DNA from: Bacillota bacterium
GTDB lineage: Bacteria; Bacillota; Clostridia; Lachnospirales; Lachnospiraceae
Assembly: GCA_029226935.1 (NCBI GenBank)
Contig: JAQXYZ010000072.1
Coordinates: forward strand, 62,001-126,000
DNA: 64,000 bases
Reading direction: 5' to 3'
The notes under the pieces were generated by a model. It had not been told where the DNA came from and ran no database searches. It worked only from the letters and a program-made list of their open reading frames with translations. This document shows positions 21,473 through 49,480 of the stretch, in pieces. Positions within the stretch are counted from its first letter, which is position 1. Each line of letters starts with the position of its first letter. The position numbers and the translations under genes were made by a program.

Positions 21473-22261
21473 ATGATTATGGCTTATGATTATGAAAAAT
21501 TCAAAAGTGCTGTTTTGGGGCTTACAAAGATTGATTTAAATGCATATAAAGAGCGTCAGATGAAGAGAAGAATTGACGCATTGATTGCCAAGCATGGGAT
21601 TGCCGGATATGAGGATTATGTGCAGGTTCTTAAAACAGACAAAGCCAGATTTGAAGAATTCGTAAATTACCTTACAATTAATGTTTCAGAATTTTACAGA
21701 AATGTTGATCAATGGAAGGTTATGGAGAATGAAATTATTCCGGAGCTGATTGATAAGTTTGGCAAGAAATTGAAAATCTGGAGTGCGGCATGTTCTACAG
21801 GTGATGAACCCTATTCACTGGTTATGGCATTGTCAAGGCATTTGCCACTCAACATGATTCATATTACGGCAACAGATATTGATAAGCAGGTAATTGCAAA
21901 AGCAAAAGTTGGGCTTTACAATGAAAAGAGTATTGCGGCGGTTCCTGATGACCTGAAAAGGAAGTACTTTACAAAGGTCGGACTTTCTTACCAAATATCA
22001 GATGATATTAAGTCATGCGTTGAGTTTAAAGAACACAATCTGCTTGATAATAATTATCCCAAAGACTATGATATGATTGTGTGCCGCAATGTGCTGATAT
22101 ATTTTACAGAGGAAGCAAAGGATGAAGTATTCAGAAAGTTCTTCCAGTCGTTAAAACCGGGTGGCATCCTCTTTATCGGAAGCACAGAGCAGATTATAAA
22201 TCACAGGGATATCGGTTATGAGCGGAAAAACTCATTTTATTATGAGCGTCCAAGCAAATAA
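21473..22261 (+). CDS. CheR-type protein-glutamate O-methyltransferase
   Basis: NVSEFYRNVDQW...IWSAACSTGDEPYSLVMAL...DYDMIVCRNVLIYFTEEAKDEVFRKFFQSLKPGGILFIGSTEQI. Confidence 0.93.
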   Translation: MIMAYDYEKFKSAVLGLTKIDLNAYKERQMKRRIDALIAKHGIAGYEDYVQVLKTDKARFEEFVNYLTINVSEFYRNVDQWKVMENEIIPELIDKFGKKLKIWSAACSTGDEPYSLVMALSRHLPLNMIHITATDIDKQVIAKAKVGLYNEKSIAAVPDDLKRKYFTKVGLSYQISDDIKSCVEFKEHNLLDNNYPKDYDMIVCRNVLIYFTEEAKDEVFRKFFQSLKPGGILFIGSTEQIINHRDIGYERKNSFYYERPSK

Positions 22262-29767: not shown

Positions 29768-30910
29768 GTGGTGGATGAAATGCGTTTGCCTGATGAATAC
29801 GAAGAAAGAGGAATGGGAACACCGGTCATCTATACGATTGTGGCGGTGTCGGCATTTATACTGATTATTCTTGCAGTGGTTTTTGCGAGCAATAACGGTA
29901 AAAAGAACTCGGGAAACGGAGTGAGTGGAGCGGTTAAGATGAGTCCTTCTCCAAGCCCTACCGAGGATGTTACCTTTGCAGAAGGGCAGGAAGATATAGA
30001 AGCTCTTTACAAAGAACATAAATTGCGGGCAGAAGATCTGGACTTTTGGGATATGTATCAGAACAATGATGTGGTAGTGGAAGCAGTTCCCACACAAAGT
30101 CCCTCTCCGGAACCTTCCCATGAGCCTACTGAAGAGGAGATGGCAACAGATGGGAAGCATGTAAAAATAACTCATAAAGATGGGGAAGAGGAATGGGTAA
30201 ATATTTCAGACGAGATTGCTCTTTCTACTTATGATTTTACAAATTTAAAGATCTCTGGCGGAAAGATGGCATATTATCAGGACGGAGAAAAGAAGTCATG
30301 GTTGGGAGTAGACTTATCCGAGGACAGTGGGGAAGTGGATTTTCAGGTATTAAAGGATTCGGGGATAGATTTCGTTATGATACGTTTAGGAAGCAGAGGG
30401 TATGAAAGCGGTCTTATTTCACTGGACGAAAAATTTGTTTCCAATATCACTGCGGCACAGGCGGCAGGACTTCATGTGGGTGTAAGCTTTTTTTCTCAGG
30501 CAGTGAATGTGAAGGAAGCGGTGGAGGAAGCTGAATTTGTTGCCAGCAACTTAATCCCGTATCAGATCGATTATCCGGTAGCTTTTGATATGGAATATAT
30601 TGTAAATGATGAAGCCAGAATCGATTCTTTGAATGTGGATGAAAAGACACAAATTGCAGAGGCATTTCTGTCAACCATTGAAAAGGAGGGATATCGTCCA
30701 ATTCTGTATGGCAATACAGACTGGCTTTTGGGAGAACTGGTGCCTGATAAATTGCTTTCAGAGTATGATATTTGGCTGAACGATCAGTCTCCGGTGCCGG
30801 AATATCCTTATCAGTTTAAATTGTGGAGATATGCCACACAACAGCAGGTTTCGGGTGTGGAAAAGGAAACTTCCTATACCATCAGCTTTGTAGATTACAC
30901 CCGCAAGTAA
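29768..30910 (+). CDS. GH25-family lysozyme (N-terminally membrane-anchored)
   Basis: TM segment; LGVDLSEDSGEVDFQVLKDSGIDFVMIRLGSRGYESG...YPVAFDMEYI...WRYATQQQVSG GH25 motifs; GTG start. Confidence 0.88.
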   Translation: MVDEMRLPDEYEERGMGTPVIYTIVAVSAFILIILAVVFASNNGKKNSGNGVSGAVKMSPSPSPTEDVTFAEGQEDIEALYKEHKLRAEDLDFWDMYQNNDVVVEAVPTQSPSPEPSHEPTEEEMATDGKHVKITHKDGEEEWVNISDEIALSTYDFTNLKISGGKMAYYQDGEKKSWLGVDLSEDSGEVDFQVLKDSGIDFVMIRLGSRGYESGLISLDEKFVSNITAAQAAGLHVGVSFFSQAVNVKEAVEEAEFVASNLIPYQIDYPVAFDMEYIVNDEARIDSLNVDEKTQIAEAFLSTIEKEGYRPILYGNTDWLLGELVPDKLLSEYDIWLNDQSPVPEYPYQFKLWRYATQQQVSGVEKETSYTISFVDYTRK

Positions 30911-31692
30911 TTACTGATTTTGCGGGAGACAGTCAATTTAGAATAAATGTCGGCGTAAGCAGAAGGAGAAAGATTTTCCAGATAATTTGGAGAAAAGTTC
31001 TTGTCTACGCCGGCTTTTTTTAATAGATCGATTGCCTTGTTATATGCAATGGCGGCTTCGATATCGCTGTTGTATGTGCCCACCGTATAATTCCCGTTAA
31101 TGTGGATTTTTGTCACATAACGGATCCCGTTTTTGGTGTTTTTTCTTGTTACACCGTGATAGGAATTCAATATTTCTATATTTTCATATCTAAAATCCAT
31201 ATCATTTCCATTTACAAAACGATAATCCCGATCTCTGACCGCATAATTTTTGATTCCATACCGGTTCATGATATTGACCTGCATACCATAATCAGATACA
31301 AAAAAATGGCGTCCCCGACGCATGATTTTGTGTGAGGAATAGTAAAACAGATCATCAATATCAAATTTTAGTACTGCTTCAGGAGAAAGATAATATTCAA
31401 AATATTTTTTGTATATGTAGATTGGTGTCGAAAAGTAAATCCCATTTTCGCGATAATTGATCAGGCATACCCATTTTTCGAAGGGAAGAATCCGGTGGAC
31501 GGAATAAGCTGAAAGATGAAGTTCCGGGTCAGTAAGCAAAGAGGTTCCTTCGAGATAGGCACCATATGCAATGAGCGCAGTGGGATAACTTCCCAAGCTG
31601 ATGTGCTTTTTTTTGTGTGTTATGGAGGCACGATAATAAACAGTACCGTCTTTTTTAGTTGCCGTAAATACACCGGGTAAATTCTGCTCCAT
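30895..31692 (-). CDS. AP2-like/degenerate HNH DNA-binding protein
   Basis: C-terminal HGVTRKNTKNGIRYVTKIHINGNYTVGTYNSDIEAAIAYNKAIDLLK and N-terminal PGVFTATKKDGTVYYRASITHKKKHISLGSYPTALIAYGAYLEG resemble AP2 domains; middle YRFVNGNDMDFRYENIEIL resembles HNH without the catalytic His. Confidence 0.65.
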   Translation of the reverse strand: MEQNLPGVFTATKKDGTVYYRASITHKKKHISLGSYPTALIAYGAYLEGTSLLTDPELHLSAYSVHRILPFEKWVCLINYRENGIYFSTPIYIYKKYFEYYLSPEAVLKFDIDDLFYYSSHKIMRRGRHFFVSDYGMQVNIMNRYGIKNYAVRDRDYRFVNGNDMDFRYENIEILNSYHGVTRKNTKNGIRYVTKIHINGNYTVGTYNSDIEAAIAYNKAIDLLKKAGVDKNFSPNYLENLSPSAYADIYSKLTVSRKISNYLRV

Positions 31693-31838
31693 GGGGACTC
31701 CTTATTACGAAAATCAGTTTTACTTAACATTATCATAACATAAAAGTTGAAATTTATAGAAATATTTTTGGCAGTAACTGTATAAAATATTAAAGAAATG
31801 TTACAAATTAAATTTACTTTCCGGTATTAGGAGAGAAT

Positions 31839-32634: not shown

Positions 32635-34125
32635 ATGATGGAAATTTTGTACAACAGCACAAGATCGAAGGGAAATCCGGTAAAGGCATCGGAGGCAATT
32701 TTGAAAGGACTTTCAGAAGATGGCGGATTATTTGTGCCGGAAAGGATTCCTGCTTTAGATAAAACCCTTGAAGAATTATCGGAAATGACATATGGACAGG
32801 TTGCATACGAAGTAATGAAGCTTTATCTTACTGATTTTACACAGCAGGAGCTTTTGGATTGTATTGCAAAGGCCTATGATGAGAAGTTTGATACAGAAGA
32901 AATCGCACCTATGGTAGAAGCAGATGGTGCATACTATTTAGAATTATTCCACGGAGCAACCATTGCGTTTAAAGATATGGCGCTTTCCATTCTCCCGCAT
33001 CTTCTGACTACCTCTGCTAAGAAAAATCAGGTCAAAAATGAGATTGTAATTTTGACAGCAACTTCAGGGGATACCGGAAAGGCAGCGCTTGCGGGCTTTG
33101 CGGATGTAGAAGGTACGCGGATTATTGTATTTTATCCTAAGAATGGTGTAAGCCCCATTCAAGAGAAGCAGATGGTTACCCAAAAGGGAAAGAATACATA
33201 TGTTGTAGGCATTCACGGTAATTTTGACGATGCACAGACTGGTGTAAAACAGATTTTTGGTGACAGGGAACTTGCTGCATATATGGATGAGAAAGGCTTT
33301 CAGTTTTCTTCGGCAAACTCCATTAATATCGGGCGTCTTGTACCCCAGATTGTGTATTATGTATATGCGTATGTGAAACTTTTGAAGGAAGAACGTATTC
33401 AGAACGGTGAAAAAATTAATGTTGTAGTTCCTACCGGAAATTTTGGTAATATTTTAGCAGCTTTCTACGCAAAACAGATGGGGCTTCCGATTGATAAGCT
33501 CATTTGTGCATCTAATGAAAATAAGGTGCTTTATGATTTCTTCCGTACAGGAACCTACGATAAAAACCGGGAGTTTGTACTTACAACATCCCCTTCAATG
33601 GATATTTTAATTTCCAGTAATCTGGAAAGACTGATCTACCGTATTGCAGGGAATGACCCGGATAAAAACAAAGAATTGATGAGCGCATTGACACAGGGCG
33701 GTATTTATACTATTACGGATGAAATGAAAGCACAGCTTGTAGACTTCTATGGCAACTATGCAAGTGAAGAGGAAACTTCAACCAAAATACACGATTTGTA
33801 TGACAGTACAGGATATGTGATCGATACGCATACGGCAGTTGCATCCTGTGTTTATGATAAGTATTTGAAGGAAACCGGAGACGATAAACCGGCAGTGATT
33901 GCATCAACAGCAAGTCCGTATAAGTTTACAAGAAGTGTTATGAATGCGATTGATCACAAGTATGATTCTATGGGAGATTTTGAACTTGTTGACAGGCTTT
34001 CTGAAATATCTAAGGTTGAGATCCCAAAGGCGATAGAAGAAATCAGGACAGCGCCTGTAGTACATAATCAAGTTTGTGAAAAGAATGAAATGAAAAAGAC
34101 GGTAATGGAATTTCTAGGCATCTGA
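32635..34125 (+). CDS. thrC: Threonine synthase
   Basis: YNSTRSKGNPVKASEAILKGLSEDGGLFVPE; FHGATIAFKDMALSILPHLL; LTATSGDTGKAALAGF. Confidence 0.96.
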   Translation: MMEILYNSTRSKGNPVKASEAILKGLSEDGGLFVPERIPALDKTLEELSEMTYGQVAYEVMKLYLTDFTQQELLDCIAKAYDEKFDTEEIAPMVEADGAYYLELFHGATIAFKDMALSILPHLLTTSAKKNQVKNEIVILTATSGDTGKAALAGFADVEGTRIIVFYPKNGVSPIQEKQMVTQKGKNTYVVGIHGNFDDAQTGVKQIFGDRELAAYMDEKGFQFSSANSINIGRLVPQIVYYVYAYVKLLKEERIQNGEKINVVVPTGNFGNILAAFYAKQMGLPIDKLICASNENKVLYDFFRTGTYDKNREFVLTTSPSMDILISSNLERLIYRIAGNDPDKNKELMSALTQGGIYTITDEMKAQLVDFYGNYASEEETSTKIHDLYDSTGYVIDTHTAVASCVYDKYLKETGDDKPAVIASTASPYKFTRSVMNAIDHKYDSMGDFELVDRLSEISKVEIPKAIEEIRTAPVVHNQVCEKNEMKKTVMEFLGI

Positions 34126-34170: not shown

Positions 34171-35529
34171 ATGAAACATATTTTAATTGTAGATGATGTA
34201 ACAACTAATCTGAAGTGCGCGGTGGAGGTACTTAAGGATACTTATGAAGTGTCTACTGCCAAATCAGGAAAATGTGCTTTGGACTTATTAAAGAAAAGCA
34301 TACCGGATCTGATTTTACTGGATGTTGATATGCCTGACATGAATGGCTATGAAGTAATGGAACGGCTTAGCATGGAAGAACAGCTTAAGGACATTCCGGT
34401 CATATTTCTGACTACAGGATCAGACAGGGAAAGCGAGATAAAAGGGCTGAAGATGGGCGCGATGGATATTGTCCGAAAGCCTTTTGAACCTGAAATCATG
34501 TGCAGCAGGATTAGCAAAATCCTTCAGATGACAGAGCAGAGAAAGGAACTGTTAGATATTGCTCAGAAGGATGGACTGACAGATCTTCTAAACAGAAGAT
34601 ATATGGAGAAGTTGCTTAATCAAACTGATACGAGAGAAAGAAAAGGATTTTTCTTTCTGCTGGATTTGGACAACTTTAAGATGATTAACGATACCTTTGG
34701 ACACGTTGTAGGTGATGATGTGTTAATAAGCTTTGCGAGGGTCTTAAAGGAAGAGGTCAGTAGTGCAGGAACTGTCTGCCGGTTGGGAGGAGACGAGTTT
34801 GCTGTTTATATTTCAGAGGAAAACAGGAAGGAAGAAATTACCCAAATTGCCCGCAGGATGATTGCAGGAATAGAATTTGAAATAAATGAGCTGCTTCCGG
34901 AAGCCTGTGATTTTAAGGTGTCTGTTTCAGTGGGAATTGCCGAGAAACCATTAGATGGAAATAGTTTTATTGAACTGTATGCAGCAGCGGATAAGGCGCT
35001 ATATTATGTAAAGCAAAATGGAAAGCGCGGATATCATTTTTATCGTGATACCAAGAAAGAACGTCGCAATTCAGAAGAAGATACTCTGATTGATCTGTTG
35101 CAGCTTCAGCGGCTGATTCGCGAGGAGGAGCATGAAGCTGGGGCATACAGAGTGGAGTATGACGGATTTAAAAGAATTTATCGGTTTGTTTCAAGATGTA
35201 TGGAGAGAAAAAGCCAGGATGTACAGCTGGTATTATTCACGATACAGGACACTTCAGAAGATGAGACAGACAGTATCAGAATGGATCATGGAATGCGAGG
35301 GTTGGAACAGGCTGTTGCTAATTCACTCAGAAGAGGAGATGTAGCAACGAAGTGTGGAAAAATGCAATATGTTGCCATTCTTCTCAACGCATCTTATGAG
35401 AATGGGAATCTGGTTGCACAGAGAATTCAAAAAAGGTTCAATAAAATTATGAATGATAACACATTGTTGCTATCCTATGAGATACAGAGTGTGGAAGCAG
35501 ACAAAGCAGAAATCAGAAATGTAAAGTAA
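34171..35529 (+). CDS. Response regulator diguanylate cyclase (REC-GGDEF plus degenerate GGDEF-like domain)
   Basis: REC ILIVDDVTTN...LLDVDMPDMNG; RLGGDEFAVYI; C-terminal SLRRGDVATKCGKMQYVAILL. Confidence 0.92.
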   Translation: MKHILIVDDVTTNLKCAVEVLKDTYEVSTAKSGKCALDLLKKSIPDLILLDVDMPDMNGYEVMERLSMEEQLKDIPVIFLTTGSDRESEIKGLKMGAMDIVRKPFEPEIMCSRISKILQMTEQRKELLDIAQKDGLTDLLNRRYMEKLLNQTDTRERKGFFFLLDLDNFKMINDTFGHVVGDDVLISFARVLKEEVSSAGTVCRLGGDEFAVYISEENRKEEITQIARRMIAGIEFEINELLPEACDFKVSVSVGIAEKPLDGNSFIELYAAADKALYYVKQNGKRGYHFYRDTKKERRNSEEDTLIDLLQLQRLIREEEHEAGAYRVEYDGFKRIYRFVSRCMERKSQDVQLVLFTIQDTSEDETDSIRMDHGMRGLEQAVANSLRRGDVATKCGKMQYVAILLNASYENGNLVAQRIQKRFNKIMNDNTLLLSYEIQSVEADKAEIRNVK

Positions 35530-49129: not shown

Positions 49130-49480
49130 ATGGAGGCGCCGATGGAAGAACGAAGAAAAAGCAACCGTATCGAATTAATATCAACTCTGGTCGTTAAGCG
49201 GCTGGATAATGGCACAGATAGAGAGGCACAGATTGAGATTGTCGATGTGTCTAAAACCGGAATTGGCTTTAGTTGCAATGAGCTATTAGAAATCGGTGCA
49301 GTCTATGAAGCTTTCCTCAGAATATGGACGCAGGAAGTCATCCATTCTTTTCTGGAGATTGTAAGAATTGAAAAGAAAGGTCCATCTTACAATTATGGGG
49401 CAGTCTTTATCGGAATGCCGGAAATGGATGCATCCAGAATTGAAGTTTATGATACCGTAGAAAGCCTTAAGAAGAGTTAA
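49130..49480 (+). CDS. PilZ domain protein
   Basis: ERRKSNRIEL (RxxxR) and VDVSKTGIGF (DxSxxG) c-di-GMP-binding motifs. Confidence 0.85.
   Translation: MEAPMEERRKSNRIELISTLVVKRLDNGTDREAQIEIVDVSKTGIGFSCNELLEIGAVYEAFLRIWTQEVIHSFLEIVRIEKKGPSYNYGAVFIGMPEMDASRIEVYDTVESLKKS

Follow-up and report, generated by a model that had tools for sequence, protein, structure and literature searches.

The window, meaning the whole 64-kb stretch of DNA that was analysed, comes from a gut-type bacterium and carries on its minus strand the AP2-HNH*-AP2 gene, whose product is predicted, from profile comparisons and an AlphaFold2 model, to be a protein of two AP2 folds around a degenerate HNH core (Table 1). Its reading frame and that of the convergent GH25 gene share 16 nt (30895-30910), an overlap already noted in a preliminary description of this DNA. 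Beyond its ribosome-binding site, a conserved non-coding block separates it from a divergent sleB-type gene, and thrC follows on that side.

Table 1. Positions of the gene, its predicted domains and the neighbouring features in the window
Feature	Position	Strand	Details and basis
AP2-HNH*-AP2 gene	30895..31692	-	265 aa, pI 9.3, ATG start; open reading frame, ribosome-binding site, Lachnospirales relatives
Ribosome-binding site AAGGAG	31698..31703	-	sequence; most relatives have a similar site
N-terminal AP2 module, residues 7-54	31531..31674	-	AlphaFold2 beta-beta-beta-alpha; hhalign against phage AP2, E 1.4e-9
Linker with helix 71-83, residues 55-102	31387..31530	-	AlphaFold2
Degenerate HNH region, residues 103-178	31159..31386	-	hhalign against phage HNH-AP2, E 6e-11
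HNH motif remnant DYRFVNGNDMDFRYENIEI, residues 156-174	31171..31227	-	alignment with phage profile, AlphaFold2 secondary structure
C-terminal AP2 module, residues 179-226	31015..31158	-	AlphaFold2; hhalign E 1.1e-12; Pfam AP2 sub-threshold
C-terminal tail, two short helices, residues 227-265	30898..31014	-	AlphaFold2
Conserved non-coding block, 47 bp, between gene and sleB	31751..31797	+	AAATATT 31760-31766, TATAAAATA 31781-31789
thrC (threonine synthase)	32635..34125	+	most persistent neighbour; adjoins the gene in most relatives
GH25 gene	29768..30910		convergent with the AP2-HNH*-AP2 gene
cheR	21473..22261		
REC-GGDEF gene	34171..35529		
PilZ gene	49130..49480		

Domain layout of the predicted protein

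The AlphaFold2 model of the 265-residue protein (79 homologues as input; mean pLDDT 93.4) predicts a strand-strand-strand-helix unit at residues 8-54 and another at residues 181-226, with a reduced HNH core (107-174, including a reduced beta-hairpin at 157-174) sitting between both AP2 folds. In hhalign comparisons, the family matched a phage HNH-AP2 profile, built from ten phage proteins that are mostly annotated as HNH or homing endonucleases, with an E-value of 6e-11 over residues 103-224 (HNH core and C-terminal AP2), while the N- and C-terminal AP2 modules of the same protein matched each other with an E-value of 1.1e-6. PHROG 99 (HNH endonuclease) likewise matched the protein at 2.5e-7. 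Structural searches with Foldseek returned the plant AP2 domains of TEM1 (7et5) and WRI1 (7wq5) as the best solved matches (E 0.006-0.06), with a probability of up to 1.00 for the TEM1 AP2 domain and its three-stranded sheet packed on a helix, and HNH-AP2-type endonucleases as the best viral ones. The preliminary description had read both termini as AP2-like and had named a profile-profile search and an AlphaFold model as ways to check this; the former leads to phage HNH-AP2 endonucleases and the latter places AP2 folds at both ends, in agreement with that reading.

Pfam AP2 (PF00847) scored 15.5 bits against a gathering score of 33.3 (E 0.021; best family member 22.2), and the AP2 assignment therefore depends on profile comparisons and on the fold. 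The protein falls into no family of Pfam, NCBIfam or PADLOC, and the matches to FolB and ClpS (Pfam) and TuaE (NCBIfam), all far under cut-off, were rejected as chance. An anti-phage defence role was also set aside, with no PADLOC match at E-values up to 1.

Within the linker, K73, N79, Y86, P90, I91 and Y100 are invariant family-wide. The position of the C-terminal tail is occupied by another AP2 module in relatives of family f2 (L125, L126 and L127; AP2-HNH*-AP2-AP2), whose locus differs and adjoins a transketolase gene in two of the three. In a separate Lachnospiraceae family (L169 and L195 in genome G056, L170 in G331), with several copies per genome, an AP2 module comes after two zinc-ribbon-like repeats (CxC..C..SCGC).

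Distribution, inheritance and the link to flagella

Across the order Lachnospirales, the gene was matched in 148 of 393 genomes, a count that includes one weak partial match (G372) left out of the 147-carrier counts below, and the relatives share 37-82% identity with the window protein. No match was found outside the order among 293 genomes sampled at class level and 250 sampled at phylum level, and none in a plasmid search. The gene is present in a single copy in the window genome. It lies in conserved synteny, with thrC on one side (joined by the sleB-type hydrolase in sporulating relatives) and GH25/Rnf on the other; some lineages also have leuCD or ilvCN beside it. Pairwise distances between AP2-HNH*-AP2 proteins follow those between the ThrC proteins of the same loci (Pearson r 0.83, 74 loci). 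Phage carriage was considered and rejected: the two full-length 'phage' matches are short, unannotated fecal contigs deposited in GenBank as 'Bacteriophage sp.' (L130, MT837267.1; L131, MT836856.1), and since they bear leuCD, citZ or thrC, along with an MCP gene, they are fragments of bacterial chromosomes. The suspected domestication is well supported by vertical inheritance, a conserved locus, strong purifying selection (see below), and searches that returned no plasmid copy and no genuine phage copy.

FliG was detected in all 147 near-complete carriers, and the gene in none of the 151 FliG-negative genomes. In the phylogenetic profile, the gene goes with the flagellar system and not with the cell-wall hydrolases next to it. 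Being restricted to one order and, in near-complete genomes, found only alongside flagellum genes, it probably encodes a tamed selfish-DNA protein that serves motility. In the window's own genus, FliG occurs in all carriers except G018 (incomplete, 82%), and six flagellate genomes of 88-97% completeness lack the gene; overall, 95 FliG-positive genomes do so. The gene is therefore not essential for flagella, and the dependence is one-way. In the window's family, 16 of the 19 FliG-positive non-carriers have a clearly lower-scoring FliG. The FliG proteins of family f1 fall into two score classes (E 1e-41 to 1e-46 in gene carriers, 1e-37 to 1e-40 for the lower-scoring class in non-carriers), which suggests that some Lachnospiraceae have replaced or re-acquired their flagella.

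An uncorrected Fisher test for FliG gave a p of 5e-43, which, the genomes being related, was not taken as a measure of the strength of evidence; a tree-based p was used instead. On an RpoB tree of 58 genomes (the G294 row, in the wrong frame, being left out), nine supported independent pairs differ in FliG, with the gene differing in the same way in 5.7 of them on average and in the opposite way in 0. The resulting association is marginal (median p 0.031, range 0.031-0.125 over pairings), and may be flattered by the hand-picked genome set, in which FliG-positive genomes without the gene are under-sampled. A SpoIVA tree of 74 genomes gave a consistent gene-FliG direction, never the opposite, in an underpowered test (p 0.06-0.25). 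SpoIVA itself, a similarly patchy trait used as a control, gave p about 1 in the same RpoB-tree test.

The immediate neighbours (thrC, GH25, sleB) are no motility genes. Further away, the window contains cheR, a REC-GGDEF gene and a PilZ gene. In L118, L131, L220, L221, L226 and L231, a CheY and CheX pair is found close to the gene or to thrC, and the MCP gene of L131 is divergent from the AP2-HNH*-AP2 gene. A cheR-like protein, judged by eye, is also encoded near the gene in L117 (1697-2524). These chemotaxis and c-di-GMP neighbours are suggestive only of a motility context.

The loss of the gene together with flagella could reflect a shared lifestyle instead of a mechanism. It is possible, if on the unlikely side, that the protein is a dead, domesticated DNA-binding regulator with targets other than motility (amino-acid biosynthesis, for example, or a role that is global or architectural). 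The flagellar link would then be a lifestyle correlation, in which the regulatory gene sets of motile lineages are larger or less reduced. The persistence of thrC, the leuCD or ilvCN genes beside some copies, the flagellate genomes that lack the gene and a tree-controlled p of only about 0.03 would all fit such targets; such targets are harder to reconcile with the lack of a single exception among the 147 carriers, with the five or more supported branches on which both were lost, several of them within genus g23 (G285, G288, G357, G419, G429), and with the absence of any such association for the similarly patchy SpoIVA.

Nuclease core, regulatory DNA and selection

In HNH enzymes, the first His forms a conserved catalytic pair with the second N/H, the two being equivalent to H41 and N62 of Endo VII (PMC6083498). 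In the hhalign alignment, the canonical V-D-H-x-D-G-N...N-N-R-x-x-N-L reads Y-R-F-V-N-G-N...D-F-R-Y-E-N-I in the family, with the catalytic Asp-His pair replaced by R158-F159; F159 is invariant in the 79 relatives and in a wider set of 24 diverse sequences, and R158 is found in 92%. The Asn at the 'eNL' position is retained as the invariant N171. The helix that carries the second N/H of the HNH metal site is missing from the alignment through a 12-residue deletion, which removes the segment bearing the invariant QN-x-x-N of the phage proteins, and the AlphaFold2 model likewise has no helix between the strands at 172-174 and 181-186. The preliminary description, which had reported an HNH pattern with both its His and its key Asn replaced, was right about the degenerate motif and the lost His, but the 'eNL' Asn is kept, and it is the following helix with the conserved 'QN' that has been lost instead.

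No His is invariant family-wide in the homologue alignment, and the invariant residues of the core are D156, R168, N171 and N176. With an invariant Phe in place of the catalytic His and the second-residue helix deleted, the nuclease is, judging from alignment and model, almost certainly dead, as had been proposed at the outset. The extreme conservation of the core and its four invariant residues would suit a protein that still works as a nuclease or nickase through other residues; such an activity is very improbable in view of the missing His, the lost helix of the beta-beta-alpha-metal site and a gene without mobility, which is found as one copy per genome at a fixed locus with no sporadic distribution.

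The 47-bp block is nearly identical in about 20 congeners. Its two elements, AAATATT and TATAAAATA at a spacing of 14, presumably form a sigma-E-like promoter of the sleB-type gene, as judged by eye against the B. subtilis consensus. The block is recognisable mainly where sleB adjoins and was not recognised in loci without sleB, and we rejected it as an operator of the AP2-HNH*-AP2 protein because it fits the promoter of the divergent gene. The divergent arrangement with sleB across this very conserved block, seen in most loci of sporulating relatives, might point to a regulator of sporulation or of the sleB-type cell-wall hydrolase. We consider this role very improbable, as the block was not recognised without sleB while the gene stays beside thrC, and the tree-controlled association with SpoIVA is null. 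SpoIVA is moreover present in 74 of the 147 carriers and absent in the other 73, so that about half of them do without it and sporulation is no requirement.

At the flgB promoter, the only flagellar promoter considered, no convincing carrier-specific element was found, and conservation was equal with and without the gene; the terminator and the sigma-A promoter there are common to carriers and non-carriers. Neither this promoter nor the 47-bp upstream block yielded an operator for the protein. Control of the gene by sigma-28 was also rejected, with one match in 202 upstream regions and no sigma-28 site in the window gene's own promoter.

Close pairs of homologues gave a median dN/dS of 0.09 overall, and 0.149 for the N-terminal AP2 module, 0.091 for the linker, 0.042 for the HNH core and 0.073 for the C-terminal AP2 module. 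The degenerate HNH region is also the best-conserved part of the protein, with a mean top-residue frequency of 0.81 against about 0.70 elsewhere. As the dead core is under the strongest constraint, it is functional and has been re-used. That the gene is a decaying relic without present function, to which its absence from several lineages and a frame-shifted copy in one flagellate genome (G258) might point, is scarcely conceivable and already refuted by these dN/dS values, and the frame is open and intact in nearly all carriers across order-wide divergence. The frame-shifted copy (L228; G258:C1:3450505-3451280) is split into two frames in a near-finished genome and may be a recent pseudogene or an assembly error.

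Proposed origin and comparison with known systems

Our main reading, to which we give a probability of roughly one half, is that the protein is a domesticated HNH-AP2 homing endonuclease, now a putative nuclease-dead DNA-binding regulator of motile Lachnospirales with a link to flagella. An HNH-AP2 mobile nuclease would have been captured in an ancestor of, or within, the Lachnospirales, would have lost its active site, and has from then on been passed down vertically as a putative DNA-binding protein of the chromosome. Acting as a monomer, the protein could recognise a long asymmetric DNA site with its two dissimilar AP2 modules, between which the dead HNH core serves as a spacer. The remodelled core may help the AP2 sheets to read the site in the manner of homing endonucleases, with cutting lost. 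The protein would regulate genes of motile cells, most likely the flagellar, chemotaxis and c-di-GMP network, and the gene would no longer be kept once the flagellum is lost. This motility role is supported by the phylogenetic profile; otherwise, we infer it.

Plant AP2 factors are thought to descend from HNH-AP2 homing endonucleases, and to our knowledge intermediates between the two are not available. The present family would offer a present-day example from bacteria: its nuclease appears dead, the remnant core is kept under tighter constraint than any other part, and the AP2 modules are likely DNA readers. We know of homing-endonuclease domestication into regulators mainly from WhiA. Text searches of the open-access literature turned up no account of such an AP2 regulator in bacteria. 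More tentatively, and short of an even chance, the family may represent an order-wide, previously unnamed group of transcription regulators that arose from a domesticated HNH-AP2 homing endonuclease, uses AP2 as plants and Apicomplexa do, and controls the flagellar programme in Lachnospiraceae of the gut, which would be a bacterial counterpart to the proposed eukaryotic AP2 origin. It would then offer a candidate motility regulator for Lachnospiraceae such as Roseburia and Eubacterium rectale. The flagellins of these bacteria are pro-inflammatory, and a regulatory role there has been suggested for CodY and CsrA (PMC3720852).

The closest known systems are the HNH-AP2 homing endonucleases of phages (PHROG 99), among them YP_008770791.1 of Bacillus phage Staley. 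They share the HNH-then-AP2 order and homologous sequence, and their AP2 modules align residue by residue with those of the window protein. The window family differs from them in its extra N-terminal AP2 module, the Asp-His to Arg-Phe replacement and the deleted second-residue helix, and in being vertical, single-copy, chromosomal and restricted to one order.

WhiA/DUF199 is a LAGLIDADG homing endonuclease turned chromosomal regulator, with a dead nuclease (PMC3781837). The window family resembles it as a nuclease-dead, domesticated, chromosomal gene of Gram-positive bacteria that retains the dead nuclease domain, its regulatory role here being a proposed one. The folds are unrelated, with no match to a LAGLIDADG core or HTH in the window protein in Pfam or NCBIfam; WhiA binds DNA via an added HTH, whereas the window family probably does so via its inherited AP2 modules, and its distribution is narrower.

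I-TevI is a homing endonuclease that acts as a transcriptional autorepressor through its promoter-repressing DNA-binding module, and homing endonucleases in general make extended multi-domain DNA contacts of up to about 30 bp (PMC3943268). I-TevI, however, is an active GIY-YIG nuclease in a mobile intron, unlike the window family, in which no autoregulatory site was found. With the plant AP2/ERF proteins, the window family shares the AP2 fold and the pairing of modules seen in plant double-AP2 proteins, but it is bacterial, falls under the Pfam AP2 cut-off, has its modules separated by a dead HNH core, and presumably arose independently.
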